Assembly: GCA_015654835.1 (NCBI GenBank)
Contig: JAATGG010000104.1
Span: 1 to 39,491, forward strand
DNA length: 39,491 bases
From: Terriglobales bacterium
Lineage (GTDB): Bacteria; Acidobacteriota; Terriglobia; Terriglobales; Acidobacteriaceae
Direction of reading: 5' to 3'
Within the stretch, counting starts at the first letter, position 1, and the number at the start of each line of letters is the position of its first letter. A program made the translations under genes and the position numbers. Shown here one piece after another: positions 3,681 to 34,610 of this stretch. The notes under the pieces were generated by a model. It did not search any database and was not told where the DNA came from. It worked only from the letters and a program-made list of their open reading frames with translations.

Positions 3681-3688
3681 GCCTCCAC

Positions 3689-4505: not shown

Positions 4506-4883
4506 TCAGGAGATGGCCTCGGCCAGCATCGAACCGCCCCATACGGCCGCAAGGCCCAGCACGAAGCTGGTCACGGCATAGAGTCCCGCAAGCAAAAACG
4601 CTCCTGTCCGCAAGGTCGCAAGCGTTTCCCACTCGTAAGTTGAAAATGTACTGTAGGCGCCGATAAAACCGATAGGAATCAGAAATCGCCAGGCAGGATT
4701 AAGTTCCGCTCGCCGGCTCATATAGGTAAGCGAAAAACCGATAAGCACACATGCCGTGATGTTGACCACCAGCGTGGCATAGGGAAAGCGAATTCCCATT
4801 CGCCCGGCAATCGTCGAGCCCACCCAATACCGGGCCATGGAACCCAGTGCGCCGCCCACAGCGATCAGAAGATATTTATGCAA
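4506..4883 (-). CDS. crcB: Fluoride exporter CrcB (Fluc channel)
   Basis: A 125-residue four-helix inner-membrane protein of the CrcB/Fluc family, which exports fluoride as a dual-topology dimer. Signature blocks are GALGSMARY near the N-terminus, TLVVN in helix 2, and GFIGAYSTFSTYEWE in helix 3, matching the conserved phenylalanine/threonine/serine track. Start: a TTG at 4883 preceded by GAGGGGA is preferred over an upstream TTG at 4913, because MHKYLLIAVGG is the usual beginning. A fluoride riboswitch and a good promoter lie upstream, and two DUF190 genes lie downstream. The rare TTG start may keep basal translation low. Assignment is strong: family motifs and riboswitch agree. Confidence 0.95.
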   Translation of the reverse strand: MHKYLLIAVGGALGSMARYWVGSTIAGRMGIRFPYATLVVNITACVLIGFSLTYMSRRAELNPAWRFLIPIGFIGAYSTFSTYEWETLATLRTGAFLLAGLYAVTSFVLGLAAVWGGSMLAEAIS

Positions 4884-4891
4884 CGATCTTC

Positions 4892-5042
4892 TCCCCTCGT
4901 GCAAGTTATACAACCAACAAAGGTGCAGCCTTGCGCGAAGGCAAAGCCAAGCACAAACAGCACATAAGAGTCGGCAGACTCATGCGCTCAAGTTGTATTC
5001 GAGGGGATTACGCCGGGACATAACTCCGCGACAGGATCCCCT
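4892..5042 (-). promoter_or_regulatory. Candidate expression platform of the fluoride riboswitch
   Basis: Read on the minus strand, leader element ATCCCCTCG (5008-5000) can pair over 8 bp with CGAGGGGA (4899-4892), which is the crcB Shine-Dalgarno region. The same element can instead pair over 7 bp with AGGGGAT (5042-5036), directly after the aptamer. The two pairings exclude each other, which suggests control of translation initiation. The complementarity is seen in the sequence; the switching model is inference. Confidence 0.5.
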
Positions 5043-5106
5043 GCCAGGAGTCATCATCTGTCCGGATTAGAGCGGGACAGCGGTTAACGGTGAACTCCAT
5101 CACCGC
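5043..5106 (-). promoter_or_regulatory. Fluoride riboswitch (crcB motif aptamer)
   Basis: On the minus strand the RNA starts GGTGATGGAGTTCACC (5104-5089). P1 is GGTG/CACC, followed by the conserved AACCGC. A second stem is CTGTCC (5080-5075) with GGACAG (5063-5058). Conserved GATGA follows, then ACTCC (5051-5047), which is complementary to GGAGT (5098-5094) in the first loop and forms the pseudoknot. All three helices of the known fluoride aptamer are present. It lies 160 bp upstream of crcB and about 15 bp after a sigma-70 promoter. Confidence 0.95.
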
Positions 5107-5119
5107 ACGTAACACTTTT

Positions 5120-5148
5120 ATTACACCGCTGTCTGCCGAGCCTGTCAA
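5120..5148 (-). promoter_or_regulatory. crcB: Sigma-70 promoter of the crcB operon
   Basis: On the minus strand there is a perfect -35 TTGACA (5148-5143), a 17-bp spacer and a -10 TGTAAT (5125-5120, 5 of 6). Transcription would begin near 5113, just before the riboswitch aptamer. The promoter lies only 20 bp after the stop of the upstream ABC-F gene, so read-through from it is also possible. Confidence 0.85.
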
Positions 5149-5167
5149 TAAGATGGTCGATGAAGAT

Positions 5168-6766
5168 TTAGTTGTGCTTGCCCTTCCACTCCACATAGGG
5201 GCCGTTGAAATCTTCGATCCCGTCTTCTTTAAAGTTCCAAAGCCGCGTCGCAACCTCGTCGATCAGGTCGTGATCGTGCGTAACCAGCAGCACTGTGCCT
5301 TCATAGCGCTGCAAGGCGATGTTGAGCGCATTGATCGACTCAAGATCGAGATGGTTGGTCGGCTCATCGAAGATCAGGAAGTTGGGCTTGGTGAGAATCA
5401 GCTTGCAGAACACCAGACGGGCCTGTTCGCCGCCGGAGAGCGCCTTGGTCGGCTTCTGGCCTTCCTCGCCGGAGAAAAGCATTTGCCCGAGAATGCCGCG
5501 AATCTCCTCGACCGTAGCTTTGGGGTCGAACTGGTGCAGCCACTCGGCCACTGTGAGGCCATGCTCGATGGTGGCGCCGATGTCCTGAGGAAAATACCCG
5601 ATCTGCGCTTCGTGGCCCCAGAAGACTTCGCCGGCGTCGAGCGTGAATTCCTTGTCTGCCAGCCCGGGATAGTTGGCCAACAGGCTCTTTACGACGGTAG
5701 TTTTACCGGCGCCGTTGCGGCCCATCAGACAGATCTTTTCGCCGCGCAGCACGCTGGCGGTGAAGTCGTCTACGACGTGCAGGTCGCTATAGTGCTTGGT
5801 CAGGCCCTTGAACTCCAGCACATGTTTGCCGCTGGGACGCACCTGATCGAAGCGAATGTAGGGCCGTTGAATGTTGGAACGAGCCAAGTCGTTGGTCTGC
5901 AACCGCTCTACCTCTTTGCGGCGGCTGGTTACCTGCGTCGAACGCGTACCGGCGGCAAAGCGCGCGATGAACTCGTTCAACTGCGCAATCTTTTTCTCGC
6001 GCTGGGCGTTTTGCGACTCCAGTGTGGAGCGCACCTGGGTCTTGGCCATCACCATTTCGTCGTAGCCGCCGGTGTAGATGATGATCGTCTGATAGTCGAT
6101 GTCGGCGGTGTGGGTGGTGACGCTGTTCAAGAAGTGCCGATCATGCGAAATCGCGATCAGCGTGCCATCGTAGTTGAGCAGGAAGTCCTGCAGCCAGTGA
6201 ACGGAGTCCAAATCGAGATAGTTGGTGGGCTCGTCGAGCATCAGCGCTTCGGGTTTGCCGAACAGGGCCTGCGCCAGCAGGACGCGGATCTTCTGGCCGC
6301 TCTGTAACTCGCCCATCTTGCGCTCGTGAAAATCATCGGTAATATCCAGGCCTTGCAGCAGCACGGCGGCATCGCTTTCGGCGGTATAGCCGTCCTCGTC
6401 ACCGATGATGCCTTCCAACTCGCCCAGCCTCATGCCATCTTCATTGGTCATTTCAGGCTTTTCGTAGATGCGGTCGCGTTCTTCAAGAGCCGCCCAGAGC
6501 GGGGCGTTGCCCATGATGACCGTGTCGATCACGCGATAGCTGTCGAATGCAAACTGGTCCTGGCGCAGGATGCCCAGCTTTCGCGGGCGAACGACCGTGC
6601 CTTTTTGCGGTTCCAGTTCCCCGGTCAGGATTTTCATGAACGTGGATTTGCCCGCACCATTCGGTCCGGTGAGACCGTAGCGCCGGCCCGGCGTAAACGT
6701 GGTACTTACATCCTCGAAGAGCACCTTCGAGCCATAGCGCATGGTGACATTGCTGACACTGATCAT
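5168..6766 (-). CDS. ybiT: ABC-F ATPase, YbiT/EttA type
   Basis: A 532-residue soluble protein with two ABC ATPase domains and no membrane segment. ABC-F proteins act on the ribosome as translation factors. Domain 1 has Walker A GPNGAGKST (about 35-43) and Walker B LMLDEPTNYLD. The inter-domain linker (about 240-320) carries the charged helical region of the P-site tRNA interaction motif. Domain 2 has Walker A GRNGAGKTT, signature LSGGEQAR and Walker B LIFDEPTNHLD, each followed by an H-switch (ISHDRHF, VTHDHD). Length and the N-terminal block (VTMRYGSKVLFEDVS) fit the YbiT subgroup rather than EttA or Uup. It is probably monocistronic. The antisense strand has a long open frame that is only a shadow of this gene. 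Confidence 0.92.
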   Translation of the reverse strand: MISVSNVTMRYGSKVLFEDVSTTFTPGRRYGLTGPNGAGKSTFMKILTGELEPQKGTVVRPRKLGILRQDQFAFDSYRVIDTVIMGNAPLWAALEERDRIYEKPEMTNEDGMRLGELEGIIGDEDGYTAESDAAVLLQGLDITDDFHERKMGELQSGQKIRVLLAQALFGKPEALMLDEPTNYLDLDSVHWLQDFLLNYDGTLIAISHDRHFLNSVTTHTADIDYQTIIIYTGGYDEMVMAKTQVRSTLESQNAQREKKIAQLNEFIARFAAGTRSTQVTSRRKEVERLQTNDLARSNIQRPYIRFDQVRPSGKHVLEFKGLTKHYSDLHVVDDFTASVLRGEKICLMGRNGAGKTTVVKSLLANYPGLADKEFTLDAGEVFWGHEAQIGYFPQDIGATIEHGLTVAEWLHQFDPKATVEEIRGILGQMLFSGEEGQKPTKALSGGEQARLVFCKLILTKPNFLIFDEPTNHLDLESINALNIALQRYEGTVLLVTHDHDLIDEVATRLWNFKEDGIEDFNGPYVEWKGKHN

Positions 6767-7008
6767 TCTTTTTGTGTTCCTTAACGCGGGCCGCAGCGGG
6801 GTATCGGCTCAGCCGGGCCGGGGCAAACTGAGGGTTGAGACAAGATTTTGGGGCACGCGCACGCGTGCAGCCCCTGAGAACTGCACTTCTAGTTTCTCAT
6901 AAGCCAGGGTCAGCAGCCCACTTGTCCTGTTCTGATACAGAAATGGCCACAGGAGGGCGATTTTAAGGGTTTTTGGTTACCATCGGTACTCAAAGGTACC
7001 CTCTTTTT

Positions 7009-7527
7009 ATGCGAGGGCCGAAAAAACCGCAGATATACTCGGGGCATTGGCCCTCTACTTGCAGTTTTTCATTTCCCCGCAGAGGTGTAACCATCGACCC
7101 ACAGTCTACAAAAACAAACTGGAAATCGATCGCCCCGCCACCTGATGACGTGGAACGTCGCGTACATCGCCGATTAAAATGTAACGGTACTGGAGAAATT
7201 CGTATATTTCCGGAGGGAATCAAGGTCGTCGGCGCTGTTGTCGACCTGAGTCTCAATGGATGTTGTTTGGAATTCGATAGCGCTGTCCCTGCTCATGTAA
7301 ATACACGTGTGGAGATCTATTTGAATGTGAAAGGCATCACCCTCCAATTGGCGGGTGAGATTCGCCATTTGCAAACAAGGGGTCAAGCAGGCATCGAATT
7401 CATCGACGTAAGCAGGCGCAAAGCGGAACAAATTCAAGAATTGATTCACGAACTCTACGAGCTGGAACAGAACTTCCCCAAGGAAGCCCCATCCGGTCTT
7501 TCTGCCAGCCCTGTTTATCGCAATTAA
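7009..7527 (+). CDS. PilZ-domain protein (c-di-GMP receptor candidate)
   Basis: About 172 residues; the PilZ domain spans roughly the last 120. It holds the two c-di-GMP-binding motifs: RRVHRR (RxxxR) and DLSLNG (D/NxSxxG), about 35 residues later, followed by the beta-barrel (LQLAGEIRHLQ, AGIEFID). A C-terminal helix (KAEQIQELIHELYELEQ) could mediate contacts. The N-terminal 50 residues have no recognisable domain. The start is uncertain: ATG 7009 has no clear Shine-Dalgarno, TTG 6973 is an alternative, and initiation further in, close to the domain, is possible. It is a single-domain receptor whose partner cannot be told from neighbours (a divergent ABC-F gene and convergent feoB). Confidence 0.85.
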   Translation: MRGPKKPQIYSGHWPSTCSFSFPRRGVTIDPQSTKTNWKSIAPPPDDVERRVHRRLKCNGTGEIRIFPEGIKVVGAVVDLSLNGCCLEFDSAVPAHVNTRVEIYLNVKGITLQLAGEIRHLQTRGQAGIEFIDVSRRKAEQIQELIHELYELEQNFPKEAPSGLSASPVYRN

Positions 7528-7533
7528 ACTCAC

Positions 7534-7558
7534 CCGGTGCAATGGCTAAAGGCACCGG
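7534..7558. terminator. Possible terminator hairpin after the PilZ gene
   Basis: The 7-bp stem CCGGTGC (7534-7540) / GCACCGG (7552-7558) starts 6 bp after the stop codon. The following sequence is A-rich rather than T-rich, so termination is uncertain. Confidence 0.35.
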
Positions 7559-7591
7559 AAAACCAATCATGCAATGAAGAGAGGGTCTGGG

Positions 7592-7621
7592 TGGACAGCA
7601 ATCAGTCATGGTTGCTGTCCA
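7592..7621. terminator. Hairpin between convergent PilZ and feoB genes
   Basis: The 10-bp stem TGGACAGCAA (7592-7601) / TTGCTGTCCA (7612-7621) lies 22 bp after the feoB stop on the minus strand. It has no T-run on either side, so it is a stabilising or weak terminating hairpin. Confidence 0.4.
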
Positions 7622-7642
7622 TACTCATTTCAGGAACAGTAA

Positions 7643-9553
7643 TTACCCGACGATTGCCGTCACGATGTGGTTCACCGCAAAGGCGGCAATGTAGGCGAGC
7701 ATCAGCATGTAGGCGAATTGAATTGCCGGCCACTTCCAGCCATTGGTTTCGCGGCGGACCACCGCGATGGTCGAAGTGCACTGCAACGCGAAGGCGAAGA
7801 AAATCATTAGTGCCAGTGCGCCGCCCAACGTCATGTCGTGCCCCAGTGCGGTTTGCAGACTCAAGGATTGGGTCCCTGGGTCCGATCCGTAGAGCGTGCC
7901 CATGGTGCTGACCATGACCTCGCGCGCGGCTATGCTCGAGAGCAGTCCGATGCCAATCTTCCAGTTGAAGCCCAGGGGCGCAATGACCGGCTCGATGAAG
8001 TGGCCCAGGCGGCCGATCAGGCTATTGGCAAGATCCGGCGCAGCGATCACTCCGCCCGCCGTATGGATCACCGGCAGATGTGCCAGAACCCATAGCGCCA
8101 AGGTGACGCACAGAATTACCGTGCCTGCGTTGTGCAGAAATACATGCGCACGATCGACGACGCGCATCGTAATCGCGCGTAGAGTCGGCATCCGGTATTG
8201 CGGCAGTTCGAGGATGAACGGCGTCTCGCTCGACCTGAGGATGGAACTTTTCAGCAGCCGTGCCGTGGCAAGCGCAGCCACAAAGCCCGCTACATACAGC
8301 CCCAGCATGACGATTGTACGAAGCCCGAGAAAACCGTGCAGGTAACTGCGATTGGGAATGAATGCGGCGATGAGCAGCATGTAGACCGGCAACCGCGCCG
8401 AGCAGGTCATGAAGGGAGTCACCAGGATTGTGGCGAAGCGGTCGCGCTTGTTCTCGATGGTGCGGGTTGCCATAATCGCGGGAACCGCACAGGCATACGC
8501 TGAAAGCAGGGGAATGAAGGCCTTGCCGTTCAAGCCAATCGAACGCATGACACGGTCGGCGATGAGGGCGGCGCGGGCGAGATAGCCCGAATCTTCAAGC
8601 ACACCGATGAAAAGAAAGAGCAGCAGAATCTGCGGCAGAAAGACCAATACGGACGAAATGCCTTTCCAGGCTCCGTCGAGTATCAGGGATTGCAGCCAGC
8701 CGGCAGGCAGCAGGGGCCGGACCAACTCGCCGATGCGCGCCAGAATATCGCCGAGGCCGTCGGAAAGCGGCTGCCCGATGGAGAAGACGACTTCGAAAAC
8801 ACCGACCACGACTGCCAGAAAGAGCAGCGGGCCCCAGATGCGATGCAAAAGTATGTTGTCGAGCTTGCGGCTGCCTTGTGCCGAGAGGGGGGCGCGATAG
8901 CCCGTGCGCCGGCTTACCTGAGCAGCCCAGGTGTGTGCACTGGCCGCGTTGCCCAGCACGGGCAGCGTCAGAGGATGTGCGGCGGTTTGCTGCGACTGCT
9001 GGTTGAGAAACAGCCTTACCGCGTCCAGACCGGTTCCATGGGTGGCGCTGATCAGGGCTACGGCAGCGCCCAATTCCCTGGCTAGCCCGAGCGCATCGAC
9101 CTTGCCGCCACGGGATTCCATCAGATCGCTCATGTTGAGCAAAACCAGCGTGGGCAACCCTAAGGCCAGCACAGGTGCCGCCAGCATCAGCTGCCGCGTC
9201 AGGTGCTGGGAGTCGAGGACCAACAGCACTGCGTCCGGAGCCGGGGTGCCTGGCATTTTGCCGCGCAGTACATCGACGGCTACGCGGGCATCTTCGGAGT
9301 AAGGGGTAAGGCTGTAGACACCGGGCAGGTCGATGAGGGTCAGGTCGTCACGGCCTACGCCCGCCATCAGGCCCATGCGTTGTTCGACGGTTACACCGGG
9401 ATAGTTCGCGACCTTTTGACGTAATCCAGTAAGGCGATTGAAAAGGGTGGATTTCCCAGCGTTCGGAGGACCGATGAGGACTATGGTACTTAGTTTGCCG
9501 TCGGAGGGGGGGGGAGGGGGGGTAAAGGTTGGAGGAGCGCAGCAACTGCTCAT
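7643..9553 (-). CDS. feoB: Ferrous iron transporter FeoB
   Basis: A 636-residue inner-membrane Fe(II) transporter. The N-terminal G-protein domain has G1 GPPNAGKST (28-36) and G3 DLPG (in LIDLPGVYSLTPYSEDA). The membrane domain follows from about residue 240, with Gate repeats and the conserved cysteines in YACAVPAIMA, TCSARLPVYM and ALQCTSTIAVV. It is shorter than the 700-770 residues of many FeoB proteins, with a compact G-domain spacer. The start overlaps feoA by 4 bp (ATGA). Codons 7-17 contain C9 and C7 runs coding for a Pro-rich N-terminus, unlike the normal family beginning and potentially slippery. Its iron would feed the many Fe-S enzymes nearby. Confidence 0.95.
   Translation of the reverse strand: MSSCCAPPTFTPPPPPSDGKLSTIVLIGPPNAGKSTLFNRLTGLRQKVANYPGVTVEQRMGLMAGVGRDDLTLIDLPGVYSLTPYSEDARVAVDVLRGKMPGTPAPDAVLLVLDSQHLTRQLMLAAPVLALGLPTLVLLNMSDLMESRGGKVDALGLARELGAAVALISATHGTGLDAVRLFLNQQSQQTAAHPLTLPVLGNAASAHTWAAQVSRRTGYRAPLSAQGSRKLDNILLHRIWGPLLFLAVVVGVFEVVFSIGQPLSDGLGDILARIGELVRPLLPAGWLQSLILDGAWKGISSVLVFLPQILLLFLFIGVLEDSGYLARAALIADRVMRSIGLNGKAFIPLLSAYACAVPAIMATRTIENKRDRFATILVTPFMTCSARLPVYMLLIAAFIPNRSYLHGFLGLRTIVMLGLYVAGFVAALATARLLKSSILRSSETPFILELPQYRMPTLRAITMRVVDRAHVFLHNAGTVILCVTLALWVLAHLPVIHTAGGVIAAPDLANSLIGRLGHFIEPVIAPLGFNWKIGIGLLSSIAAREVMVSTMGTLYGSDPGTQSLSLQTALGHDMTLGGALALMIFFAFALQCTSTIAVVRRETNGWKWPAIQFAYMLMLAYIAAFAVNHIVTAIVG
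9506..9522. repeat. G9-A-G7 homopolymer tract inside the feoB start
   Basis: On the plus strand a run of nine G (9506-9514), one A and seven G (9516-9522) lies within the first 20 codons of feoB. On the feoB mRNA these are C-runs coding for a short proline stretch. Such tracts are prone to replication slippage and to sequencing error. Confidence 0.85.
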
Positions 9554-20489: not shown

Positions 20490-20564
20490 GTGCAGATCAG
20501 GCGTTACGTAGGAACACCGCACACTACCCGGTGGTTCGGAGGCAACGATGCAAGTCTCCAATGA
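20490..20564 (+). CDS. Possible 24-residue leader peptide
   Basis: A GTG at 20490 with a good Shine-Dalgarno (AGGAGA, 5 bp upstream) starts a 24-codon frame ending TGA at 20562-20564, overlapping the first 17 bp of the antiporter gene. The predicted peptide is Arg/Thr-rich (MQIRRYVGTPHTTRWFGG near its start). It may couple translation to the hydrogenase operon, or it may be chance. No homology recognised. Confidence 0.25.
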   Translation: MQIRRYVGTPHTTRWFGGNDASLQ

Positions 20565-23500
20565 AGCTTTGGTGCTGTTTGCAATGCTGCCGCTGTTGGC
20601 CGGCATCGTTCTGCAGCTTCTCGCCGCACGCTTTCTTTCTTCCCGGGCCAAAGGTGTGCTGGCGCTGGTGTGTTGCGTCCCCAGCCTGGCTGCTGTGGTG
20701 GCCACTTTCACACGGGTGAGCCAAGCCGGAGCGATCCACTTTTCTGCACTGCCGTGGGATGGGCCGCTGGCCCTGGTCTTTCATGTCGATGCGCTCAGCC
20801 TGATGTTCGCGCTGATGGGCACGGGGCTGGGTTCCATCGTGCTGCTTTACTCGATCGGCTACATGGCCGAAGACCGCGGCGCCACGCGCTTTTACGCATT
20901 CATGCTGACGTTTATCTGCGGCATGGTGGGCCTGGTGTATAGCGCGAACCTGTTCTTTCTCTATCTTTGCTGGGAAGCGATGGGGCTGTGCTCGTTCAGC
21001 CTGGTCGGCTTCTGGTACGAGAAGAAGGAATCCGTCGCCGGCGCCCGCAAAGTGCTGTTGATGACCCATCTTGCGGGCTATGGACTGCTGGCGGCGATTT
21101 TGCTGATCTTTGCCCGCACGGGGAGCGCACTGTGGACCGACCCAGCGGTGGCCCAGGCGTTTAGCGGGGGTATTTACACGCTGATGCTGGTGGCGTTGCT
21201 TGCCAAGTCGGTGCAGTTTCCGCTGCACACCTGGATTCCCGAGGCGATGAACGCGCCCACCCCGGTGAGTGCGCTGCTTCACGCCGCCTGCTACGTGAAG
21301 GCCGGTGTGTATCTGGCTGCCCGTATGCATTGCTTCAATCAATGGCCGGGTTCCTGGGGCTTTGCGATGATGTGGCTGGGCGTTGTGACGATGGTTGTCG
21401 GGGTGGCCTACGCGATGGTGCAGCACGACCTCAAGCGGATGCTCGCCTTTCACACGGTGAGCCAGATCGGCTATATCATTACCGGCCTGGGGCTTGGCAC
21501 TCCTTTGGGGATTGCCGCGGGATTATTGCACTGCCTCAATCACAGCCTGTTCAAGGGCGGCCTCTTTCTGGCCGCAGGTTCGGTGCAGCACGCTACCGGA
21601 ACCCGGGACATGAATCAGCTAGGCGGCCTTGCCCGGCGGATGCCGCGTACGTCGGTGGTGTGGCTGATCAGCGTCGGCAGCATGATGGGCGTGCCTTTCA
21701 TGAGCGGCTTTGCCAGCAAGTGGCTGCTGTACACGGCGGCTTTGCAGGCGGGGCAGGTTGTGCCGGCCCTGCTGGCCTGGGTGGTCAGCGTGGGCACGGT
21801 CTTCTCTTGCGTCAAGGCCACCAGTTCGGTATTTCTGGGACCTACCACGCCGCGGACTGAAAACGCTCACGAGGCGCCTCCGACGATGGTCTGGGCGCTC
21901 GGCCTCTTCGCACTGGGCAGCGTGGTTCTGGGCCTGGCTCCGCAACTGGCTGTCCACTACATCATCAATCCCATTCTGCCGCTGCTCGGCTTGGCGACCG
22001 TGCAGGTGTCCTGGTTTGGCCTGACGCCTACAGCCGGTTCGTGGCTGACGACGGGCGGCCTGGTGCTTGCGGTTGTTTCCGCAGGTGTCGGCGTGGTGCT
22101 TTACCTGATGGCCGGCATGTCAAGGGCGCGCGCCCTCTCCGTAGAGGGTGGCGCGATCATGGCGGGCGCCACGGGGGGCGGAGGCGTCGGCGTCTTTACC
22201 GGAGGCGAATCGATTTCAGGGCCGACCCGGTTGCCTGCGAGTGAGTTCTCGGTCATCCTCAAGAAGACATGGGCGCCGTTCTTCCGGAATACGGATGTGG
22301 ATCGGGTCTATCTGGCTCTTTGGGGCGGACTCCAGGCGGCTTCGAATGCGCTGGGCCGCGTCATGGCGTGGGCAGAGAAGTCCGCGATCACGTGGACGGT
22401 CGCTCTCACGCTTGCGCTGATCTGGCTGGTGCGCTGGTTCGCGCCTGCGGTGGGAGCACCGGTGCTGGCGAGTGGGACAAAGCAAGCGGCCGAATCGCTT
22501 CCCATGCTGCTGGGGGCGGGTTGCGCCGTTGCGCTCGCCGCGCTGCTGGTGGCTGCCGGCGCGCAGAAGGCGTGGAGATCTTTGGTCCCGCTGCTGGCGG
22601 GGACAGGACTCGCTGCCGTGGCTGCCACATGGGTTGCGCAGCCGGTCGCGCGGCTGGCTCTGCTGGAGCTTGCCACGGTGCTGGCTTTGGTGCTGGTGTG
22701 GCGGACGGGTACGCGACGCGCGGCATGGCTTTACTCCGTCGTGGTCGCGCTCTCCGCGGTGAGCCTCATCGCCGGGCAGGTGGCTCTGCAGCAGGGAAGC
22801 GTCGACTGGGCACGGGCGCTGTTGCTAAGCGGCTTTCTGCTGAAGCTTGCGATTGTGCCTCTGCTGCTATGGTTGCCGATGCTGGCCGATGCGGTGCCGG
22901 CTGTGGTGATCGGCGTCATCATTGCGGTCGTCGATATCGCGGCTTTCGGCGAGCTTTATTTGGCGGCGCAGACGCATCCTGAACTGCTGCTGCCCCAGGG
23001 CGTGTGGATCGTCGCTGCAATCGCTTCTGCGCTGATGGCATCGTTGTTGATGCTGACTCAGCGGAATCTGAAGCGGCTGCTGGCGCTCTCAACCATCGAG
23101 GACATGGGCTTTCTGCTGCTGGGCGTCTCGGTGGCCAATGAACTTGGCTTACGCGGCGCGCTGTTCGCGGCCACGGTTCATGCTTTGGCCAAGGCGCTGC
23201 TGTTTATCTCCATCAGCACTCCGGAAGCGGACGGCGCACTCACGGAAAACGCGCGCGGTCTGGCTTCGCGCTACCCGGTCAGTGCGGCGGGATTTCTTGC
23301 CGGGCTGCTGGCCATGCTGGGGATTCCGCCGCTGCTGGGCTTTGCCGGGCGCTGGCGCCTCTATCAGGTTGCGGCTGGAACCAATCACTGGGTCCTTGCA
23401 GGCTTCATTCTCTCCTCGATGTTCGCGCTGATTGCGTATGTTCTCTGTCTTACCCGCTGCTGGTGGGGACCTGCGGAAGCAGATACGACCGAGGGCGAGG

Positions 23501-23619
23501 TTCAGCACGGCGGTGAGTCTCTGCCGCTGCGGCTTGCGATTGTGGGCTTAATTATCGTTTTACTGGCTGGCGGCCTCTGGCCCAATGCGCTGCTTGCCTT
23601 GGCGGGAGGAATTCGATGA
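20548..23619 (+). CDS. Double antiporter-like subunit of group 4 hydrogenase
   Basis: A 1023-residue polytopic membrane protein, first gene of the hydrogenase operon and the likely ion pump. Module 1 (about residues 1-520) is a NuoL/MrpA-type antiporter subunit with the charged residues of the proton path: E143 in CWEAMGLCS, K220 in AKSVQFPLHTWIPEAMNAP, K251 in YVKAG, K336 in NHSLFKGG. Module 2 (about 650-1023) is a second, shorter antiporter-like unit with K766 (LLKLAIVP), NLKRLLALSTIEDMG and HALAKALLF, but Asp796 stands where the TM8 lysine is expected. A Gly-rich linker (about 535-555) and an amphipathic stretch join them. GGAGG lies 5 bp before the ATG. Family members are usually about 500-650 residues, so a fusion is likely. 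It overlaps the next gene by 4 bp. Confidence 0.88.
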   Translation: MQVSNEALVLFAMLPLLAGIVLQLLAARFLSSRAKGVLALVCCVPSLAAVVATFTRVSQAGAIHFSALPWDGPLALVFHVDALSLMFALMGTGLGSIVLLYSIGYMAEDRGATRFYAFMLTFICGMVGLVYSANLFFLYLCWEAMGLCSFSLVGFWYEKKESVAGARKVLLMTHLAGYGLLAAILLIFARTGSALWTDPAVAQAFSGGIYTLMLVALLAKSVQFPLHTWIPEAMNAPTPVSALLHAACYVKAGVYLAARMHCFNQWPGSWGFAMMWLGVVTMVVGVAYAMVQHDLKRMLAFHTVSQIGYIITGLGLGTPLGIAAGLLHCLNHSLFKGGLFLAAGSVQHATGTRDMNQLGGLARRMPRTSVVWLISVGSMMGVPFMSGFASKWLLYTAALQAGQVVPALLAWVVSVGTVFSCVKATSSVFLGPTTPRTENAHEAPPTMVWALGLFALGSVVLGLAPQLAVHYIINPILPLLGLATVQVSWFGLTPTAGSWLTTGGLVLAVVSAGVGVVLYLMAGMSRARALSVEGGAIMAGATGGGGVGVFTGGESISGPTRLPASEFSVILKKTWAPFFRNTDVDRVYLALWGGLQAASNALGRVMAWAEKSAITWTVALTLALIWLVRWFAPAVGAPVLASGTKQAAESLPMLLGAGCAVALAALLVAAGAQKAWRSLVPLLAGTGLAAVAATWVAQPVARLALLELATVLALVLVWRTGTRRAAWLYSVVVALSAVSLIAGQVALQQGSVDWARALLLSGFLLKLAIVPLLLWLPMLADAVPAVVIGVIIAVVDIAAFGELYLAAQTHPELLLPQGVWIVAAIASALMASLLMLTQRNLKRLLALSTIEDMGFLLLGVSVANELGLRGALFAATVHALAKALLFISISTPEADGALTENARGLASRYPVSAAGFLAGLLAMLGIPPLLGFAGRWRLYQVAAGTNHWVLAGFILSSMFALIAYVLCLTRCWWGPAEADTTEGEVQHGGESLPLRLAIVGLIIVLLAGGLWPNALLALAGGIR

Positions 23620-24086
23620 GCATTCTCAAGCAGTTGATGCATAAATGCCGCCGTAAGAGTCCGTGGCTGTTCCACCTGAACACGGGTAGCTGCAATGGCT
23701 GCGACATTGAACTCGTCACGTGCCTTTCGCCCCGCTACGATGTGGAGCAACTGGGCATTCATCTCGAAGGCAGCCCGCGCCATGCCGATATTTTGTGCAT
23801 CACCGGTCCGGTCACCCGCAACACGCTGGAAGCGGTGAAGACGGTGTACTCGCAGGTTTGCGAGCCGAAGGCCGTCGTCGCCCTTGGATCATGCCCGGCC
23901 TCGTGCAATGTTTTTGCCGGCAGTCCCGTGATCGAGGGGCCGCTCAGCAAGCACATTCCGGTGGACGTCTATGTACCCGGATGCCCGCCGCACCCAGACG
24001 CTATTATCAACGGCATTGCCCGCGCAGCAGAGATCCTGGCCAGCCGTGGAGTGCCCGAAAAAGCCAAAGGAGAGCCGCAGAAATGA
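23616..24086 (+). CDS. Group 4 [NiFe] hydrogenase small subunit (NuoB/HycG/EchC-like)
   Basis: A 156-residue cytoplasmic-side small subunit carrying the [4Fe-4S] cluster nearest the Ni-Fe site. The four cysteine ligands are in GSCNGCDIE (about residues 25-33), LGSCPASCNVF (about 90-100) and PGCPPHPDAI (about 125-134). The short length, lack of a Tat signal and the NuoB-like ending are typical of energy-converting group 4 enzymes rather than uptake hydrogenases. It starts within the stop of the antiporter gene (ATGA) and overlaps the next gene in the same way, so the operon is tightly coupled. It partners the large subunit encoded at 25938. Confidence 0.93.
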   Translation: MSILKQLMHKCRRKSPWLFHLNTGSCNGCDIELVTCLSPRYDVEQLGIHLEGSPRHADILCITGPVTRNTLEAVKTVYSQVCEPKAVVALGSCPASCNVFAGSPVIEGPLSKHIPVDVYVPGCPPHPDAIINGIARAAEILASRGVPEKAKGEPQK

Positions 24087-24994
24087 ATGCCTCTGGCCTG
24101 ATTCAACTTTTCGTGTTTCCCGGTTTGCTGTTTGCGATTCCCGCCGGCTGGTTCTACATATGGGGCGAGCACAAGGCCGTGGCCCGGATGCAGCAGCGTA
24201 TTGGACCGCCGATGCTGCAACCCTTCTACGACTTCGTCAAGCTGCTCGGCAAGCGCACGCCATCGCGCCGCGGCATTGAGGCGGACTTGCTTCGCCTGTG
24301 GCCCGCGCTGTCTGTGCTTTCGCTGGCGGGAGCGCTGGCGCTGCTGCCTGTTTTTCCGAGCGGGCATGGATTTTCGGGCGATGGCATTCTGCTGGTGGCG
24401 CTTCTCGAACTGCCGTCCATCTGCTTCATCCTGGCCGGCTTTACTTCAGGCTCGATCTACGGTGAGATCGGGGCCATTCGCGAAGCCGTCTTGAGCGTTG
24501 CCAATAACCTGGTCTTCCTGCTGGCCATCGTCACCATCGCGGTCACGGAGAAGACTTTCCGCCTGGGCGATCTTGCCGGGCCTTCCTGGAATCCGGGGCA
24601 CTGGCTTGGGGTCTTCGGCATCCTGTTGTGCATTCCCGCGAAGTTGAGGCTCAATCCCTTCTCGACTTCCAGCGCGGAACAGGAAATCTATTCCGGTCCG
24701 CTTACCGAATATGCGGGAGCGGCGCTGGGTATGTGGGAACTGGCGCATGGCCTGGAGTGGGTTGCGCTTACCGGTCTTGTGGCTACGCTGGTGCTGCCGG
24801 TTGGCGGTCCCTGGTGGATTCACGCAATCCTGTTCGTTGCTGTCTCCTTCGGCGAGGTGCTGTTGCTTTCAGCCGTATCCGCGGCCACGGCGCGCTTCAC
24901 CTTGCAGCGCTCTATCCAGTTCTATTGGCGCTGGGCTGCCGTGCTGGCGGTGCTTGCCATGTCTTCCGCCATTTACATGAGGTTCCGCTCATGA
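24083..24994 (+). CDS. Group 4 hydrogenase membrane anchor (NuoH/HyfC/EchB-like)
   Basis: A 303-residue membrane protein with about eight helices that joins the catalytic arm to the ion pump. NuoH-family blocks: YIWGEHKAVARMQQRIGP (about 20-40), LQPFYDFVKLLGKR, SIYGEIGAIREAVLSVANN and STSSAEQEIYSGPLTEYAGA, with conserved acidic residues on the proton path. The true start is the ATG at 24083, overlapping the small-subunit stop; the longer open frame upstream is not coding. It ends in a 4-bp overlap with the ferredoxin-like gene. Its length is close to that of HyfC/HycD. Confidence 0.93.
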   Translation: MNASGLIQLFVFPGLLFAIPAGWFYIWGEHKAVARMQQRIGPPMLQPFYDFVKLLGKRTPSRRGIEADLLRLWPALSVLSLAGALALLPVFPSGHGFSGDGILLVALLELPSICFILAGFTSGSIYGEIGAIREAVLSVANNLVFLLAIVTIAVTEKTFRLGDLAGPSWNPGHWLGVFGILLCIPAKLRLNPFSTSSAEQEIYSGPLTEYAGAALGMWELAHGLEWVALTGLVATLVLPVGGPWWIHAILFVAVSFGEVLLLSAVSAATARFTLQRSIQFYWRWAAVLAVLAMSSAIYMRFRS

Positions 24995-25485
24995 ACATCT
25001 TCCGTCTCATCTTTCAGAACCTTTGGCGCGGCCCGGTTTCGTTCCGTTTGCCGCATCACCATGAATGCACAAGCAGCGAGTATCGTGGCCTCATCCACAA
25101 TGACCCGGAACGTTGCGTAGGCTGCGGCAGTTGCGCCTATGTATGCCCGACCTGCGCGATTGTGGTGACTCGAACCGGGGACAAATATCAGTGGACCTAC
25201 GACCCAGGCAAGTGCACTTTCTGCGGACGCTGCATCGACCGTTGCAAGCCCAACACTTTGACCATGGAGTCGGAGCTTCCGCCGCTTTATAGCACCCAGG
25301 GCGAACTGAAGCAGGTTCTCGATATGGTGCGTAAGAAGCCGGTACGCCCTGCGGTTGCGGCGACTCCGGTTGCCAAAGCATCCGCAGTTGCAGCAGAGCA
25401 AGCGCCAGCAACTGCGCCAGCGACTGTAGCCGCAGAGGCTGCAAAGCTCACACCGCCCACCCCCAATCCGGAAGCTGCGGTCTAG
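24991..25485 (+). CDS. Group 4 hydrogenase ferredoxin-like subunit (NuoI/HyfH/EchF-like)
   Basis: A 164-residue electron-transfer subunit with two [4Fe-4S] clusters: CVGCGSCAYVCPTC (about residues 43-56) and CTFCGRCIDRCKP (about 73-85). It would take electrons from ferredoxin and pass them to the small subunit. The N-terminus (MNIFRLIFQNLWRGPV) is an amphipathic helix typical of NuoI-like subunits. The last 50 residues are Ala/Pro/Val-rich and repetitive, an unusual low-complexity tail with no family counterpart that I know. It starts in a 4-bp overlap, and a 30-bp gap with an AAAAGAAGG site precedes the next gene. Confidence 0.92.
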   Translation: MNIFRLIFQNLWRGPVSFRLPHHHECTSSEYRGLIHNDPERCVGCGSCAYVCPTCAIVVTRTGDKYQWTYDPGKCTFCGRCIDRCKPNTLTMESELPPLYSTQGELKQVLDMVRKKPVRPAVAATPVAKASAVAAEQAPATAPATVAAEAAKLTPPTPNPEAAV

Positions 25486-25515
25486 CCGGCGAATCAGCGG
25501 AAAAGAAGGTCAAGA

Positions 25516-25941
25516 ATGGCAATCGCACTAGCAGGTTTTGAAGAGAGACTCAAAGAGTTGGGCCTCGGCGAGGGGTGGGTCTGGAACAACGGTTCCTGGT
25601 GGCTCACGCCGCAGGAGGCAATCGATGTTCGCGCCACTACGGAGTTCATGCTCAAGCTGGACGCACGTTTTGTGGCGATCACGGCCATCGAACGCGAGGA
25701 CAAGGAAATTCGCCTCGACTACCAGTGGGACTTGAACGGCCAGCTTCTCAGTTTCATTACGGCGACTGCGGAGCGGCAGATTCCGAGCATTGCCGATCTG
25801 TCACCGGCAGCCGACTGGGTCGAGCGGGAAACGCGTGAATACTTCGCCGTCGAGTTCACCGGCCGCGAGAATACCAAGCCATTGATGACCAGAGCAGGCG
25901 ACGCCATTGGCATCAATCTGCATAAGGAGGTTGAAAAATGA
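25516..25941 (+). CDS. Group 4 hydrogenase NuoC-like subunit (EchD-like)
   Basis: A 141-residue soluble subunit of the NADH dehydrogenase 30-kDa (NuoC) family. In group 4 hydrogenases it packs against the large subunit and has no cofactor. The family signature is the block ERETREYFAVEFTGRE (about residues 101-117), preceded by the beta-sheet core (LDARFVAITAIERED, IRLDYQWDLNG). The N-terminal half is weakly conserved, as is normal. It ends in a 4-bp overlap with the large subunit gene and follows the ferredoxin-like gene by 30 bp. Shorter than NuoC of complex I, similar to EchD. Confidence 0.85.
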   Translation: MAIALAGFEERLKELGLGEGWVWNNGSWWLTPQEAIDVRATTEFMLKLDARFVAITAIEREDKEIRLDYQWDLNGQLLSFITATAERQIPSIADLSPAADWVERETREYFAVEFTGRENTKPLMTRAGDAIGINLHKEVEK

Positions 25942-27026
25942 GCTTCCGAATCCCAATCGGACCTTATCATCCCGCTCTCGAAGAGCCGTATAAGCTGGAA
26001 CTGGTGTGCGACGGCGAAACGGTGCGCGACGCGGTCATGCATGTCGGCTTCAATTTTCGCGGCATCGAGTATCTTGCCGAGCGGCGCAATTATCTGCAGG
26101 GCATCACGCTGGTGGAGCGCGTCTGCGGCATCTGCTCGAATGTGCACTCCCTTTCTTTCTGCCAGTCGGTCGAACAGCTAAACGGGGCTACGCCGCCGGA
26201 ACGCGCTCTCTACATCCGCGTGATCCTGGCGGAACTGGAGCGGCTGCATTCGCATTTTCTCTGGTCCGGCGTTGCGGCCAAGCTGATCGGCTTCAAGACC
26301 GTGTTCATGACCTGCTTCACGCTGCGTGAAAAGGTGATGGATGCGCTCTCGGCGATCTCAGGCAACCGCGTCAATTACGGCATGAATCGCATCGGCGGCG
26401 TCAATCGCGATATTGCCGATCCGCAGGCGGTTTTGAATATTCTGGGCGAAATGGAGCACGGTATCACCTCGGCGATCATTCCCATTTTTCTCGAAGACAG
26501 GACCGTTGCTTCGCGCTGCAAGGGGGTCGGCATTCTGACCAATGCACAGGCGAAGGCCATGGGCGCAGTGGGTCCGTTGGCGCGCGCTTCGGGCGTGCCG
26601 CAGGATATCCGCAAAGCCGCTCCCTACGCAGCCTATGAGCGATTCGAGTTCAACGTGCCTGTCGAAACAGACGGCGATGTTCGTGCCCGGCTCGTGGTTC
26701 ACGCGCTGGAAATGATCGAGAGCTGCCGCATTTTGCGGCAGGCGCTCAGCACGTTGCCCGAAGGGCCGTTCCACACGACGCCCCCAACCGCAGCGCGCTT
26801 CAAAGTACCGGCGGGCACGGCGATCAGCCGCGTTGAAGCGCCCCGCGGGGAGGTGGTGTACCAAATCACTTCCAATGGAACGGAAACTCCGGAGCGCGTT
26901 CGTGTGCGCACGCCTACGTTCATGAATATGGCTACGGTCCGCTTTACCGTGCTGGGACAGGAGCTTGGCGACTCGCCTTTGATTCAGGCGTCGTGCGATC
27001 CTTGCTACTCCTGCACCGACCGCTAG
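25938..27026 (+). CDS. Group 4 [NiFe] hydrogenase large subunit (EchE/HycE-like)
   Basis: A 362-residue catalytic subunit. Both Ni-Fe-binding pairs are intact: L1 RVCGICSNVHS (C63, C66) and L2 SCDPCYSCTDR (C356, C359), so this is a real hydrogenase and not complex I subunit NuoD. The chain stops at the Arg right after the L2 motif. There is therefore no C-terminal peptide for a maturation endopeptidase to remove, which is also reported for some CooH/Ech-type enzymes. The N-terminus IPIGPYHPALEEP and the compact length fit group 4. I leave the subgroup (4a-4g) open. It ends the operon; a hairpin lies 30 bp after the stop. Reduced ferredoxin from NifJ is the natural electron donor. Confidence 0.95.
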   Translation: MSFRIPIGPYHPALEEPYKLELVCDGETVRDAVMHVGFNFRGIEYLAERRNYLQGITLVERVCGICSNVHSLSFCQSVEQLNGATPPERALYIRVILAELERLHSHFLWSGVAAKLIGFKTVFMTCFTLREKVMDALSAISGNRVNYGMNRIGGVNRDIADPQAVLNILGEMEHGITSAIIPIFLEDRTVASRCKGVGILTNAQAKAMGAVGPLARASGVPQDIRKAAPYAAYERFEFNVPVETDGDVRARLVVHALEMIESCRILRQALSTLPEGPFHTTPPTAARFKVPAGTAISRVEAPRGEVVYQITSNGTETPERVRVRTPTFMNMATVRFTVLGQELGDSPLIQASCDPCYSCTDR

Positions 27027-29768: not shown

Positions 29769-31190
29769 TTAGCGATGAACTTCGTCTAGAATCTCGCCGC
29801 TGGGTGCGACCAGTTCAATCGAGAGAGGCATCTGGCCGAAGGCGTGCGTCGAGCAACTCAAGCAGGGATCGAAGGTGCGGATCACTGCTTCGACACGATT
29901 CAACATGCCCTGTTCCAGCTTGCTGCCTTTCACAAATCGTTGCGCTGCGTTCAAGACGCCGCGGTTCATGGCATGGTTGTTCTGTCCTGTGGCGATCACG
30001 AGATTGGCCCACACCATCTTGCCGTATTCATCGACCTTGTAGTGGTGCATGAGCGTGCCGCGCGGAGCTTCGGCGACGCCGGCACCTTCGAGACGATTGA
30101 CGCCTGCGGTGGCGCGTACGTGGGGGTCGAGAATTTGCGGATCGGCGAGAATCCGCTCGATCATCTCGATGCCGTACAGGACTTCAATGAGCCGTGCATG
30201 ATGGTAGTGGAACGAGCCATGCACCGGGCCTTTAGCCAACTGCTTGAACTCGACCAACTCTTTCCCTGCCAGAGGCGTACCCATTTTGCTGGCGATATTA
30301 AGCCGCGCCAGCGGGCCTACACGGTAACTTCCGCCGGGATATCCGAGAGGCTTGTAATAGGGAAACTTCATGTAGGTATAGGGCTCGACCGCTTCGCCAA
30401 AGTGATGATCGAACTGATCGGCGGTTACCTTATCGAGCACAGTGTTGCCGGTAGCGTCGATGAGCCGCAATGCGCCATCGGTGAACTCGATTGAATCGTC
30501 GTCGTTCACCAATCCAAGAAACATGGTGGGGAAATTGGCAAAGTTCTCAATCTCATCTTTGAACTTTTCGGCGATTTTCTTGTACCATGCCAAAGCGTAT
30601 TGCACGTTGCCGTAGGCTTGCGGGATCATGCCGAGAATCTCGTCGCGCTTGGCTGCGTCCAGAGGCTCGGTTACGCCGCCGGGAATGATCCACCCGGGGT
30701 GAATGCGCTTGCGGCCCAATAACTCGATGATGTGCTGGCCGAAACGACGCAGAGCTACACCGGCGAGCGCCAACTCCGGCTTAGCCTTGGCTACGCCGAA
30801 CAGATTGCGCTCTGCCGGGTCCGCATCCATCCCAAGCAACAGGTCGGGAGAGGACAGATAGAAGAAGCTGAGCGCGTGGGACTGAATGGTCTGCGCCAGG
30901 TTGATGATGCGCCGCAGTTGCGCCGCCGTGTGAGGAATCTCTACGGCCATGATGGCCTCACAGGCCTTTGCCGAAGCCACCAGATGGCTTACCGGACAGA
31001 TGCCGCAGATGCGGGCCATCAGGGCGGGCATTTCATAGAACGGGCGGCCTTCGTTGAACTTCTCAAAACCACGTACTTGGGTTACGTGGAAGAATGCCTC
31101 CTGGACATTGCCTTGATCATCGGTCTTCAGCGTAATCTTGCCGTGACCTTCCAGGCGTGTCACTGGGTCAATCACAATGGTTTGCGACAT
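29769..31190 (-). CDS. hoxH: NAD-linked [NiFe] hydrogenase large subunit HoxH (group 3d)
   Basis: A 473-residue catalytic subunit of the bidirectional hydrogenase. L1 is [10 protein letters not shown] (C62, C65) and L2 is DPCLSCSTH (C443, C446). Cleavage after His449 would release a 24-residue C-terminal peptide, as required for maturation. The N-terminus [14 protein letters not shown] is the standard opening. It belongs with HoxY (upstream by 9 bp) and the diaphorase HoxEFU. The gene order hoxE-F-U-Y-H equals that of cyanobacterial-type enzymes. It can evolve H2 from NADH or take up H2 depending on redox state. Confidence 0.96.
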
Positions 31191-31199
31191 TGCTCTCTC

Positions 31200-31733
31200 C
31201 TACGCACCAAAGCGGGTTAGGCTTGCGATATCCGGCGTGCGGCCGGCAAGCAAGTCACTCAAGACTGTATAAAATGTGTCGGCGGAGGGTGGACAGCCGG
31301 GCAAAAACAGATCGACCGGGACCACCTCGTGGACGGGACGCACCTTCTCAATCAGTGCGGGCACACCGACTGCCGGCACCTGCTGTTGCAGGTCCGCGGT
31401 GGTGAAATAGGCATGATCGGTGATGGCCTTTGCGCCGAAGGAATTGCGCATTCCCGGCACATTGGTGGTGATGGCGCAGTCGCCCATCGCGATCAGCATC
31501 TTGGTGCGTTCGCGAATGATATGAATCTTATGCTCATCTTCCACGCTGCTGATCGCGCCTTCCACGAGGGCAATATCCACGCCCTCGGGGAAGGTTTTGA
31601 AGTCGACCAGCGGACTGAAGACCAGATCGAACTGGTTGCTTAGCGTGATGAGCCGCTCATCCATGTCGAGAAAGGACATGTGACAGCCCGAGCAGCCGTC
31701 CAGCCATACCGTTGCTAGTTTTAATTTGCTCAT
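31200..31733 (-). CDS. hoxY: NAD-linked hydrogenase small subunit HoxY
   Basis: A 177-residue small subunit with one [4Fe-4S] cluster. Ligands are in [14 protein letters not shown] (about residues 11-24), AMGDCAI (about 97) and [11 protein letters not shown] (about 150). It lacks the Tat signal and the extra C-terminal clusters of uptake hydrogenases, as expected for group 3d. It overlaps hoxU by 4 bp and is followed 9 bp later by hoxH. It connects the Ni-Fe site in HoxH to the Fe-S chain of HoxU/HoxF in the cytoplasm. Confidence 0.95.
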
Positions 31734-32452
31734 TGTCCGTCTCTCATCATGTTCAGATATGGCAGGAATTCCGGATGTTTAGGATGGCTCACTCCCACCT
31801 TGCTCTTGTCGAACAGGGCGCCTGTGGGGCAGACCTGGATGCATTTGCCGCAACGCGTGCAACTCGATGCGCCCCACGGTTCATGCAAGTCGGTCAGCAC
31901 CTGGCTATTGATGCCGCGTCCCATAATGTCCCAGACATGCGCGCCCTCAATCTCGGCGCAGACCCGCACGCAACGCGAGCACAGAATGCAGCGATTGTGA
32001 TCGGCGACGAAACGTTCGTTCGAAGTGTCGACCTCAAGCCGGCCCACGCGGTAGGGCAGCCGCACATGCGTCAACCCCTGCGTCTGAGCCACAGCCTGCA
32101 ATTCGCAATTTCCATTGGCCACGCAGACGGCGCAGACGTGGTTGCGCTCGGCGAACAGAAGCTCCAGGATTGTGCGCCGATGGTGGACCAGTCTCTCCGA
32201 GTTGGTGTCGACTTCCATGCCTTCTTCGACCTTGGTCACGCAGGCCGGAAACAGCTTGGGCGATCCCTTGATCTCCACCAGGCACAGGCGACAAGCACCC
32301 ACGTCGGTGAGGCCGTCGAGATGGCAAAGTGTGGGGATGAAAATTCCGTTCTCGCGGGCCACGTCGAGAATGGTCTGGTCAGCGCGGGCACTGACGTTTT
32401 CCCCATTGATGATGAGCGTTTTGACATCAACGCTTGTCGCCGTCGGACTCAT
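31730..32452 (-). CDS. hoxU: Hydrogenase diaphorase subunit HoxU
   Basis: A 240-residue electron-transfer subunit homologous to the N-terminus of NuoG. The N-terminal [2Fe-2S] domain has [15 protein letters not shown] plus a later cysteine (FPAC). A NuoG-like middle follows with [15 protein letters not shown]. Two [4Fe-4S] ferredoxin motifs, [11 protein letters not shown] and [14 protein letters not shown], occupy about residues 150-215. It overlaps hoxF (4 bp) and hoxY (4 bp). It carries electrons between HoxF and HoxY. Confidence 0.95.
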
Positions 32453-34116
32453 GCGTGCACCTCAACTTCTCCAGACACACTGCCTTCAATTTCCCGTGAG
32501 CCGCAAGCACATACGCCCGCCGGGCAGTTTTTGTTTTCGATGTGCTCGATATACTCGTTGCGGAAGTAACGCAGCGTGCTCAGCACAGGATTGGGAGCCG
32601 TCATGCCCAGGCCACACAGACTTGTTTCCTTGATGACGGAGCAGAGGTCAACCAGTACGTCGAGGTCGGCATAGGTGCCTTCTCCATTGCAAATCTTGGC
32701 CAGGATCTGATGCATCTGCGCCGTGCCCGCGCGGCAGGGAATGCATTTGCCGCACGACTCGCCCATGCAGAACTCGACGAAGAACTTGGCTACGTTGACC
32801 ATGCACGACGTGTCGTCCATGACGATCATGCCGCCGGAGCCCATCATCGAACCAACGCCAATCAGGGATTCATAGCTGACGGGAATGTCGAGATGCTCTT
32901 CGGGAATGCAACCGCCCGAAGGGCCGCCGGTTTGTACGGCCTTGAAGCGCCGGCCTTCCGGGACACCGCCGCCGATGCCGAAGATGATCTGGCGCAGCGT
33001 CATGCCCATCGGGACTTCGACCAAGCCGGTGTGGTTGATTTTGCCAGTGAGTGCGAAGACCTTGGTGCCCTTGCTCTTCTCCGTGCCCATGTTGGCGAAC
33101 CATGCTCCGCCGTTGCGGATGATAGGCGGCACATTGGCGAATGTTTCAACGTTGTTGATGAGCGTCGGCTTGCCCCAGAGTCCGGAAACGGCGGGATAGG
33201 GCGGTCTCGGCTTGGGGGTGCCGCGCTTGCCTTCGATGGAGGCGATCAGAGCGGTCTCTTCACCGCAGACAAATGCGCCTGCGCCGAGACGAATCTCGAT
33301 GTCGAAGTTGAACGCGGTGCCGCAGATGTTGTTGCCGAGCAAACCGCGCCGGCGAGCATCGCGCAATGCCGTGCTCAAGCGGCTGACAGCCAACGGATAC
33401 TCGGCGCGCACATAGACGAAGCCGCGGCTGGCACCGACGGCGTAAGCGGCAATGGTCATGCCTTCAATCACGCGCTGCGGATCGCTCTCAAGCACGCTGC
33501 GATCCATGAATGCGCCGGGGTCGCCCTCGTCGCCGTTGCAGATCACATACTTCATATCGCCGACTGCCTTGGCGACCGTGCCCCATTTCAAGCCTGTGGG
33601 ATAACCGCCACCGCCGCGGCCCTTGAGCCCGCTCCGGGTGATCTCTTCGATCACTGTGATGGGCGTCATCTCCGTCAATGCCTTGAGCAGGGCGACAAAG
33701 CCGTCGCGGCCGATGTAGTCTTCGATTTTTTCAGGATCGATGCGGCCGGAGTTCTCAAGAACTACGTGCACCTGATCGTCGAAGTGCTCGCGCAGGTCGC
33801 AGAGCAACTCCGGGATCGGCGCTCCCTCGACGCTTTTGACCACTTCTTTGGCGCGTTCCGGCGTCACATGCTGATAGAGAACATTGATCGGTTCCATAAA
33901 GACCAATGGACCCGATGCGCACAAACCCATGCAGCCGGTGCGGCGCACGATGATGCGTTTGTTGGAGACGCTGGCTTCGCGCGCCAACTCGTCCTTGATT
34001 TTGTCGCTGTGCTGGGACAGGCAACCGGTGCCCATACAGACGTTGATTTCAAAGTCGGCTTTGGCCCGTTCCTGCTTGGAGTTCTCGGCAATCTGTTGGA
34101 GCTCTTCCAGGTTCAT
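32449..34116 (-). CDS. hoxF: Hydrogenase NADH-binding subunit HoxF
   Basis: A 555-residue diaphorase subunit where NAD(H) and FMN bind. The N-terminal thioredoxin-like [2Fe-2S] domain (about 25-110) has CMGTGC and GCMGLC. The NuoF core has the nucleotide-binding [16 protein letters not shown] (about 200-215), [17 protein letters not shown] and [14 protein letters not shown]. The C-terminal [4Fe-4S] motif is [13 protein letters not shown] with a later Cys in SLCGLG. A final Cys-containing tail ([10 protein letters not shown]) is extra. The ATG at 34116 (MNLEELQQ) shares its A with the hoxE stop; the longer frame upstream lies inside hoxE. HoxE is separate, as in cyanobacterial-type enzymes. 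Confidence 0.95.
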
Positions 34117-34610
34117 TACACTGTCCACCTTTCGAATTGCTCCTGCAGTTTGGCGGCAGTCGTGTCGCCCATCAGTTCTCCGTCGAAGATCGCCACCGGA
34201 GCGCGGCCACAGGCACCCACGCACCGCGCGGTCATGAGTGAAATTTTGCCGTCAGGCGTGGTGTCGCCTTCCTTGATCTGCAAATGCCGTTCCGCGTAGG
34301 CCACCAGCCGGTCTGCACCTTTGATGTAGCACGCGGTTCCCGTGCACACCGTGCAGGTATGTTCCCCGGGCGGTTTCAGGCTGAAGTAGTGATAGAACGT
34401 GACCACTCCATAGGCCTGACTGAGAGGGACGCGCAAGGACTTGGCGACGAACCGGATCGACTCATCGTCGAGATATCCAAACGAGGTCTGCACGGTGTGC
34501 AGCGTCTCGATCAGCGCATGCCGGGCAAAACCATGACGGCGCATCGTGCCGTTGACGATCTTCCACCGCTTGTCGGCCGATGGAAGGGGGGGCATAGGAT
34601 AGACGGGCAC
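34116..34610 (-). CDS. hoxE: Hydrogenase diaphorase subunit HoxE
   Basis: A 164-residue NuoE-like subunit with one [2Fe-2S] cluster in a thioredoxin fold; ligands are in CTVCTGTACYIKGA (about residues 85-98) and ARCVGACGRAP (about 125-135). It is the first gene of the operon. The start is taken as GTG 34610 because AGGAGG lies 4 bp upstream; an ATG at 34637 is in frame but has no such site. It may provide the side path to ferredoxin proposed for cyanobacterial HoxE. Its stop overlaps the hoxF start by one base (TAATG). Confidence 0.92.
   Translation of the reverse strand: MPVYPMPPLPSADKRWKIVNGTMRRHGFARHALIETLHTVQTSFGYLDDESIRFVAKSLRVPLSQAYGVVTFYHYFSLKPPGEHTCTVCTGTACYIKGADRLVAYAERHLQIKEGDTTPDGKISLMTARCVGACGRAPVAIFDGELMGDTTAAKLQEQFERWTV

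Follow-up and report, generated by a model that had tools for sequence, protein, structure and literature searches.

The open reading frame at nucleotides 20548–23619 on the plus strand of the window (the whole 39,491-nucleotide contig analyzed here) carries two antiporter modules on one chain of a hydrogenase subunit, and the second module, with altered buried charges, is conserved across its family. The frame is intact, encodes 1023 amino acids, and contains PF00361 twice. When each half was scanned separately, residues 1–530 matched PF00361 at 2.7e-64 and also PF00662, and residues 640–1023 matched PF00361 at 5.9e-30 (104.9 bits against the curated cut-off of 21.5). The preliminary description, which was made from the sequence alone, had proposed this fusion and named separate profile searches as a check; both halves are antiporter-like by that measure. 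In PDB searches with phmmer, residues 531–1023 matched MbhH of the Pyrococcus furiosus membrane-bound hydrogenase (6cfw_H) at 1.8e-20. A profile of module 2 found this chain at 3.5e-30, and among solved structures none is nearer to module 2 in sequence.

The fused gene leads a six-gene operon (20548–27026) with 4-base overlaps at most junctions. It is followed on the plus strand by a small hydrogenase subunit of the NuoB/CooL/EchC type (23616–24086; PF01058, 1.9e-29), a membrane subunit of the NuoH/CooK/EchB type (24083–24994; PF00146, 5.4e-45), a two-cluster ferredoxin subunit of the NuoI/CooX/EchF type (24991–25485; by domain scan), a NuoC/CooU/EchD-type subunit (25516–25941; PF00329, 6.3e-11), and a NuoD-type [NiFe] hydrogenase large subunit (25938–27026; PF00346, 6.6e-67; PF00374, 8.2e-11). 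All six core subunits homologous to those of complex I (L/M/N-type, H, B, C, D, and I) are thereby present. The four cysteine ligands of Ni are found in the two CxxC motifs of the large subunit, RVCGICSNVH and DPCYSCTDR. Judged from its sequence, the operon encodes a genuine energy-converting group 4 [NiFe] hydrogenase, with H2 evolution and ion coupling predicted. An Ehr-type (Ni-less) complex was also considered and is ruled out by the intact CxxC motifs.

Upstream on the same strand are genes for pyruvate:ferredoxin oxidoreductase (PFOR; TIGR02176, E-value 0) and AdhE (PRK13805, E-value 0). HoxF-U-Y-H type genes for a bidirectional [NiFe] hydrogenase lie 3 kb downstream on the minus strand (29769–34224); HoxU is above the NCBIfam cut-off, and HoxH, HoxY, and HoxF were assigned from sequence reading and sub-threshold matches. 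These surroundings would fit a fermentative setting, though not one general among the loci: the PFOR/AdhE neighborhood is seen in only three of 44, many of which have too little flanking sequence. The gene order M-B-H-I-C-D itself recurs at about 40 loci, also in three other families.

Module 1 (residues 1–490; 20548–22017, plus strand) is a canonical antiporter module of the NuoL/MbsH'/HyfD type, based on Pfam, alignment, phylogeny, and structure match. Its canonical residues are E143, K220, H227, H245, K251, H332, K336, and K391, and K251 is replaced by Thr in some relatives. The linker (residues 491–640; 22018–22467, plus strand) was delimited by the secondary structure in the AlphaFold (AF2) model, a structure match up to about residue 625, and an invariant motif. 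It is predicted to consist of TM15 (501–530), a disordered loop, a lateral-helix-like segment (564–611), and TM16 (613–631), with low confidence at 515–572. The full-length model (pLDDT 78, pTM 0.63) matches NuoL of mycobacterial complex I (8e9g_L) over residues 3–625 with Z 44.7, and MbsH' (6u8y_X) over residues 7–624 with Z 41.7, the lateral helix and the last TM included. A sequence search of the PDB with the linker alone returned no match (best E 0.54), so the homology to lateral-helix tails is based on structure only. The tail of HycC in formate hydrogenlyase (FHL) is ND3-like with a lateral helix, and helix length tracks the number of antiporter modules (PMC9474812). By analogy, the 48-residue lateral helix of the window protein, about 72 Å long, would be of a length suited to roughly two modules. 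At the site of the ND3-like loop of HycC, the linker contains the invariant sequence FTGGE (F550–E554), and no Cys that could be the counterpart of HycC Cys537 in the ND3 loop is found within residues 491–640.

Module 2 (residues 646–1018; 22483–23601, plus strand) is a 12-TM antiporter module equivalent to TM3–TM14, based on Pfam, the AF2 model, and structure match. The fold of both modules is a prediction; for module 2 modelled alone the confidence is high (pLDDT 89.9, pTM 0.90). This model matches ND4, NuoM, NuoN, and MrpD chains with Z 36–39 over about 360 residues, and Foldseek gives E 2e-12 and a TM score of about 0.8. TM1–2 are missing, leaving 12 TM rather than 14, and the structure matches begin at chain residues 42–81 or so, which corresponds to TM3. 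The models retain both the broken TM7 (766–775) and the broken TM12 (924–931).

In the preliminary description, Lys766 and Lys882 were said to remain in module 2, Asp796 to replace the TM8 lysine, and the HTWIP block to be lost. Sequence and alignment bear out all of these; LLLWLP and FFWLL are present instead of HTWIP. What it had missed is the retention of Glu707, the Arg935 and Glu851-Asp852 substitutions, the loss of TM1–2, and the linker of TM15, loop, lateral helix, and TM16 (residues 501–631 or so). In the alignment of 32 full-length sequences, Glu707 in TM5 (22666–22668, plus strand, as are the following sites) is invariant, and is Asp in the divergent L097. Lys766 in TM7 (22843–22845) and Asp796 in TM8 (22933–22935) are invariant too, as are Glu851-Asp852 at the start of TM10 (23098–23103), which stand in place of Ser-Gln or Ser-His. 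The canonical pair His878 and Lys882 in TM11 (23179–23193) is retained and invariant. Arg935 in TM12 (23350–23352) occupies the place of Lys (or Glu) in all 32, and is His in the divergent ortholog L099.

A one-residue gap is needed to bring Asp796 into register with the TM8 Lys (motif D-[IM]-A-A-F-G for the former, K-x-G-x-[FY]-G for the latter), and the MAFFT alignment places it one column before that Lys. The Glu of the TM10 motif E-[ND]-x-G is common to HycC, HyfB, and HyfF of Escherichia coli, so it is by itself not unusual. Among the 104 modules compared, Arg in TM12 is seen only in module 2 of this fused family, and the rest have Lys or Glu. Twelve charges in the membrane helices are unchanged in the 32 sequences: E707, K766, D796, E802 (TM8), K842, R843, E851, and D852 (TM9–10), H878, K882, E893 (TM11), and R935. 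Charged positions in the TM of module 2 are more often invariant (12/27) than other positions (38/271; Fisher p = 3.5e-4, 32 sequences).

The rate of divergence of module 2 is roughly double that of module 1. Excluding the nearest copy, identity to the window is 48–55% for module 2 and 67–72% for module 1. For the closest pairs, dN/dS is 0.09–0.26 in module 2 and 0.05–0.18 in module 1 (Nei-Gojobori, with some dS >1). By these comparisons module 2 is freer to change than module 1, yet clearly under purifying selection and not decaying. Given the 12 invariant charges and this dN/dS, the word "degenerate" once applied to module 2 is mostly wrong. Purifying selection alone is compatible with either an ion-conducting or a structural module 2.

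The explanation we lean towards is a six-subunit ferredoxin-type hydrogenase in which module 1 pumps and module 2 is an integral, altered working part. Both modules and their conservation are evident from sequence comparison. Most likely, a fermenting or facultatively anaerobic acidobacterium of soil or peat would dispose of reduced ferredoxin as H2. Proton reduction by ferredoxin at the [NiFe] site would drive ions through the NuoH subunit and the canonical module 1; module 1 and the linker (up to about residue 631) would perform ordinary ion translocation. Module 2 (about 646–1018) would be an added module that lost TM1–2 and had its buried charges altered while Glu707 and Lys766 were kept. 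It may act in the charge relay or in coupling, as a conserved element with altered chemistry, and would not be a relic.

The main rival, to which we give a smaller but substantial probability, is that module 2 is structural only. It would be a scaffold gripped by the lateral helix, or a part for assembly or anchoring, that retains its fold and its salt bridges (such as one between Asp796 and Arg935) without conducting ions, and only module 1 would pump. The loss of HTWIP and of TM1–2, the change of the TM8 Lys to Asp, and that of the TM12 Lys to a permanently charged Arg all fit this possibility. Arg935 looks hard to deprotonate, and so would block the classical exit step, which counts against an active module 2. 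The faster divergence and higher dN/dS than in module 1 indicate weaker constraint, and count against the explanation we prefer. The reaction from ferredoxin to H2 also yields little energy for a second pump, which is in favor of a structural role. A precedent is HycC, in which the TM7 Lys is missing (Leu208) and in whose structure a route for protons to the P-side was not clearly visible (PMC9474812). The TM7 Lys absent from HycC is retained in module 2. Against a structural role, the presumed pumping residues, the TM5–TM7 Glu/Lys and TM11 His/Lys, are retained without variation, and a pure scaffold need not retain both broken helices and both members of the pairs. It is possible, but rather doubtful, that ions also pass through module 2, where the carboxylates and the arginine (Asp796, Glu851-Asp852, Arg935) would replace the lysine relay, and ion stoichiometry or specificity would differ from those of single-antiporter enzymes; the protein would then be a charge-swap experiment made by nature within the complex I superfamily.

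It had been proposed that the Ech enzymes known so far contain a single antiporter subunit. This holds for Ech in the narrow sense, whose EchA contains one antiporter module, but not for group 4c, where CooM is already a fusion. CooM of Rubrivivax is a fusion of 1255 aa with 29–33 predicted TM (PMC4257681), and that of Citrobacter is encoded by 3789 bp and has 36 predicted TM (PMC5371261). The genome of the window itself contains a second group 4 hydrogenase, a cooMKLXUH-type cluster on another contig (L029, G000:C205:1-12000; 1782–9099, minus strand). Its CooM is 1273 aa long and has three PF00361 stretches: one half-length module plus two complete modules whose charges are canonical. Next to the cluster, where the contig ends, are a ferredoxin-like gene and one of the CooS family. 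The three Prismane/CooS-family hits of the genome are on contigs C187, C175, and C205, and none is on the contig of the window, C136, which is only 39 kb. A plasmid search for CooM returned only Mrp/Nuo-type matches and no CooM.

That the window protein is simply CooM, the subunit of an ordinary CO-linked group 4c hydrogenase, is improbable. The two systems share the six subunit types, a large subunit lacking a C-terminal extension (40.6% identical between them), and a leading gene whose product is a fusion of antiporter modules; group 4a or 4c hydrogenases have also been reported from peatland Acidobacteria, SbA5 among them (PMC6018796). In contrast to the window subunit, CooM (1255–1273 aa) has a half module and two full canonical modules, the CODH genes are adjacent to its gene, and the gene order is M-K-L-X-U-H, as in the C205 cluster. 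The window operon is ordered M-L-K-X-U-H, as at about 40 loci, with no CODH gene nearby, and its shorter subunit has two PF00361 stretches: a NuoL-type module, a lateral-helix linker, and a truncated, rewired module. In the module tree, module 1 groups with NuoL/HyfD (97/87), away from both CooM modules.

Other systems resemble the window operon in part. Methanosarcina barkeri Ech (EchA-F) shares the plan of a six-subunit ferredoxin:H+ oxidoreductase. MBS/MBX of P. furiosus also has two antiporter modules per complex, but MbsH', MbsH, and MbhH are encoded by separate genes and have canonical charges, and the MBS large subunit is not a hydrogenase. HycC and the Hyd-4 subunits HyfB, HyfD, and HyfF of E. 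coli are likewise antiporter subunits of group 4 hydrogenases, but they are encoded separately, are formate-linked, and have Glu or Lys, never Arg, in TM12 in the set compared here. NuoL, NuoM, and NuoN of complex I have the folds of both window modules but are separate genes, and the window operon has no NADH module. A third kind of fusion is found in Ehr-like Ni-less complexes of other Acidobacteriota families (L100–L104, L106, L107, and L109). These loci encode a fused double antiporter of about 1050 aa, NuoH, NuoB, and a large subunit with neither Ni CxxC motif; at L102, where scanned, there is also a protein of about 600 aa combining Fer4 and pyridine-nucleotide oxidoreductase. Module 1 of this fusion clusters with NuoN and carries Glu in place of the TM7 Lys.

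Module 2 of the window protein is on a branch of length 2.08 with no resolved sister, and its amino acid composition is unlike the rest of the tree. Since modules 1 and 2 are only about 28% identical, a recent duplication of module 1 is an unlikely origin for it. The large-subunit tree had too few named references and carries a long-branch warning. The window, CooM, and Ehr-like fusions differ in module make-up and order, which suggests that they represent separate events, although the module tree is no proof of this.

Besides the window, 31 full-length fused copies are present in named records, nearly all of them from Acidobacteriota. The sources include metagenome-assembled genomes (MAGs) of Acidobacteriaceae and Terracidiphilus, the peat MAG SbA5, the isolate Occallatibacter savannae (L082), and a doubtful Rhodoferax MAG. 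The contig scan, which also looked for the family outside Acidobacteriota, was run with two peptides specific to the family, so that orthologs as divergent as L097 would escape it. The fused gene was found in 36 of the 119 relatives searched, all of the window's own genus, and in six of 396 genomes spread across the phylum, with three other families included. The Rhodoferax copy is on a contig of 4235 bases (L070), and its fused ORF is 58% identical. Because none of 397 other genomes of that phylum has the fused gene, this contig is probably misbinned. Separate ORFs for module 2 were not seen in finished genomes, and shorter ORFs were at contig ends or beside breaks where checked. An assembly or annotation artefact, in which a missed stop or a frameshift joined two genes, might be imagined for a MAG-type contig from an assembly of 280 contigs, but can practically be dismissed given the 31 other independent fused ORFs, including those of the isolate O. 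savannae and of single-contig genomes (G002 and G871).

The fused length is the norm in its own subgroup (32/32 full-length copies). The preliminary description would have taken the length as ordinary if it were the norm of a well-described subgroup; the former half applies, while no description of the fusion or of the architecture of that subgroup was found in the literature. In the genome of SbA5, no group 4-like large subunit with Ni motifs was found other than that of the window-type operon (L162; 63% identity to the window); the motif read-out covered the other two large-subunit hits, which are NuoD-like and have no Ni motifs. Because SbA5 carries the window-type operon, the enzyme has already been counted.

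How antiporter-like subunits translocate ions, and which of their buried charges this requires, is a major question in research on complex I and the related hydrogenases. Two-module fusions probably arose in more than one group 4-type lineage. Here, a canonical module is joined in a single polypeptide to a charge-swapped one, and members of four families retain the swaps, which provides a natural test. If module 2 pumps, the TM8 and TM12 lysines would be dispensable. If it does not, a pump module would have been turned into a structural or coupling part.
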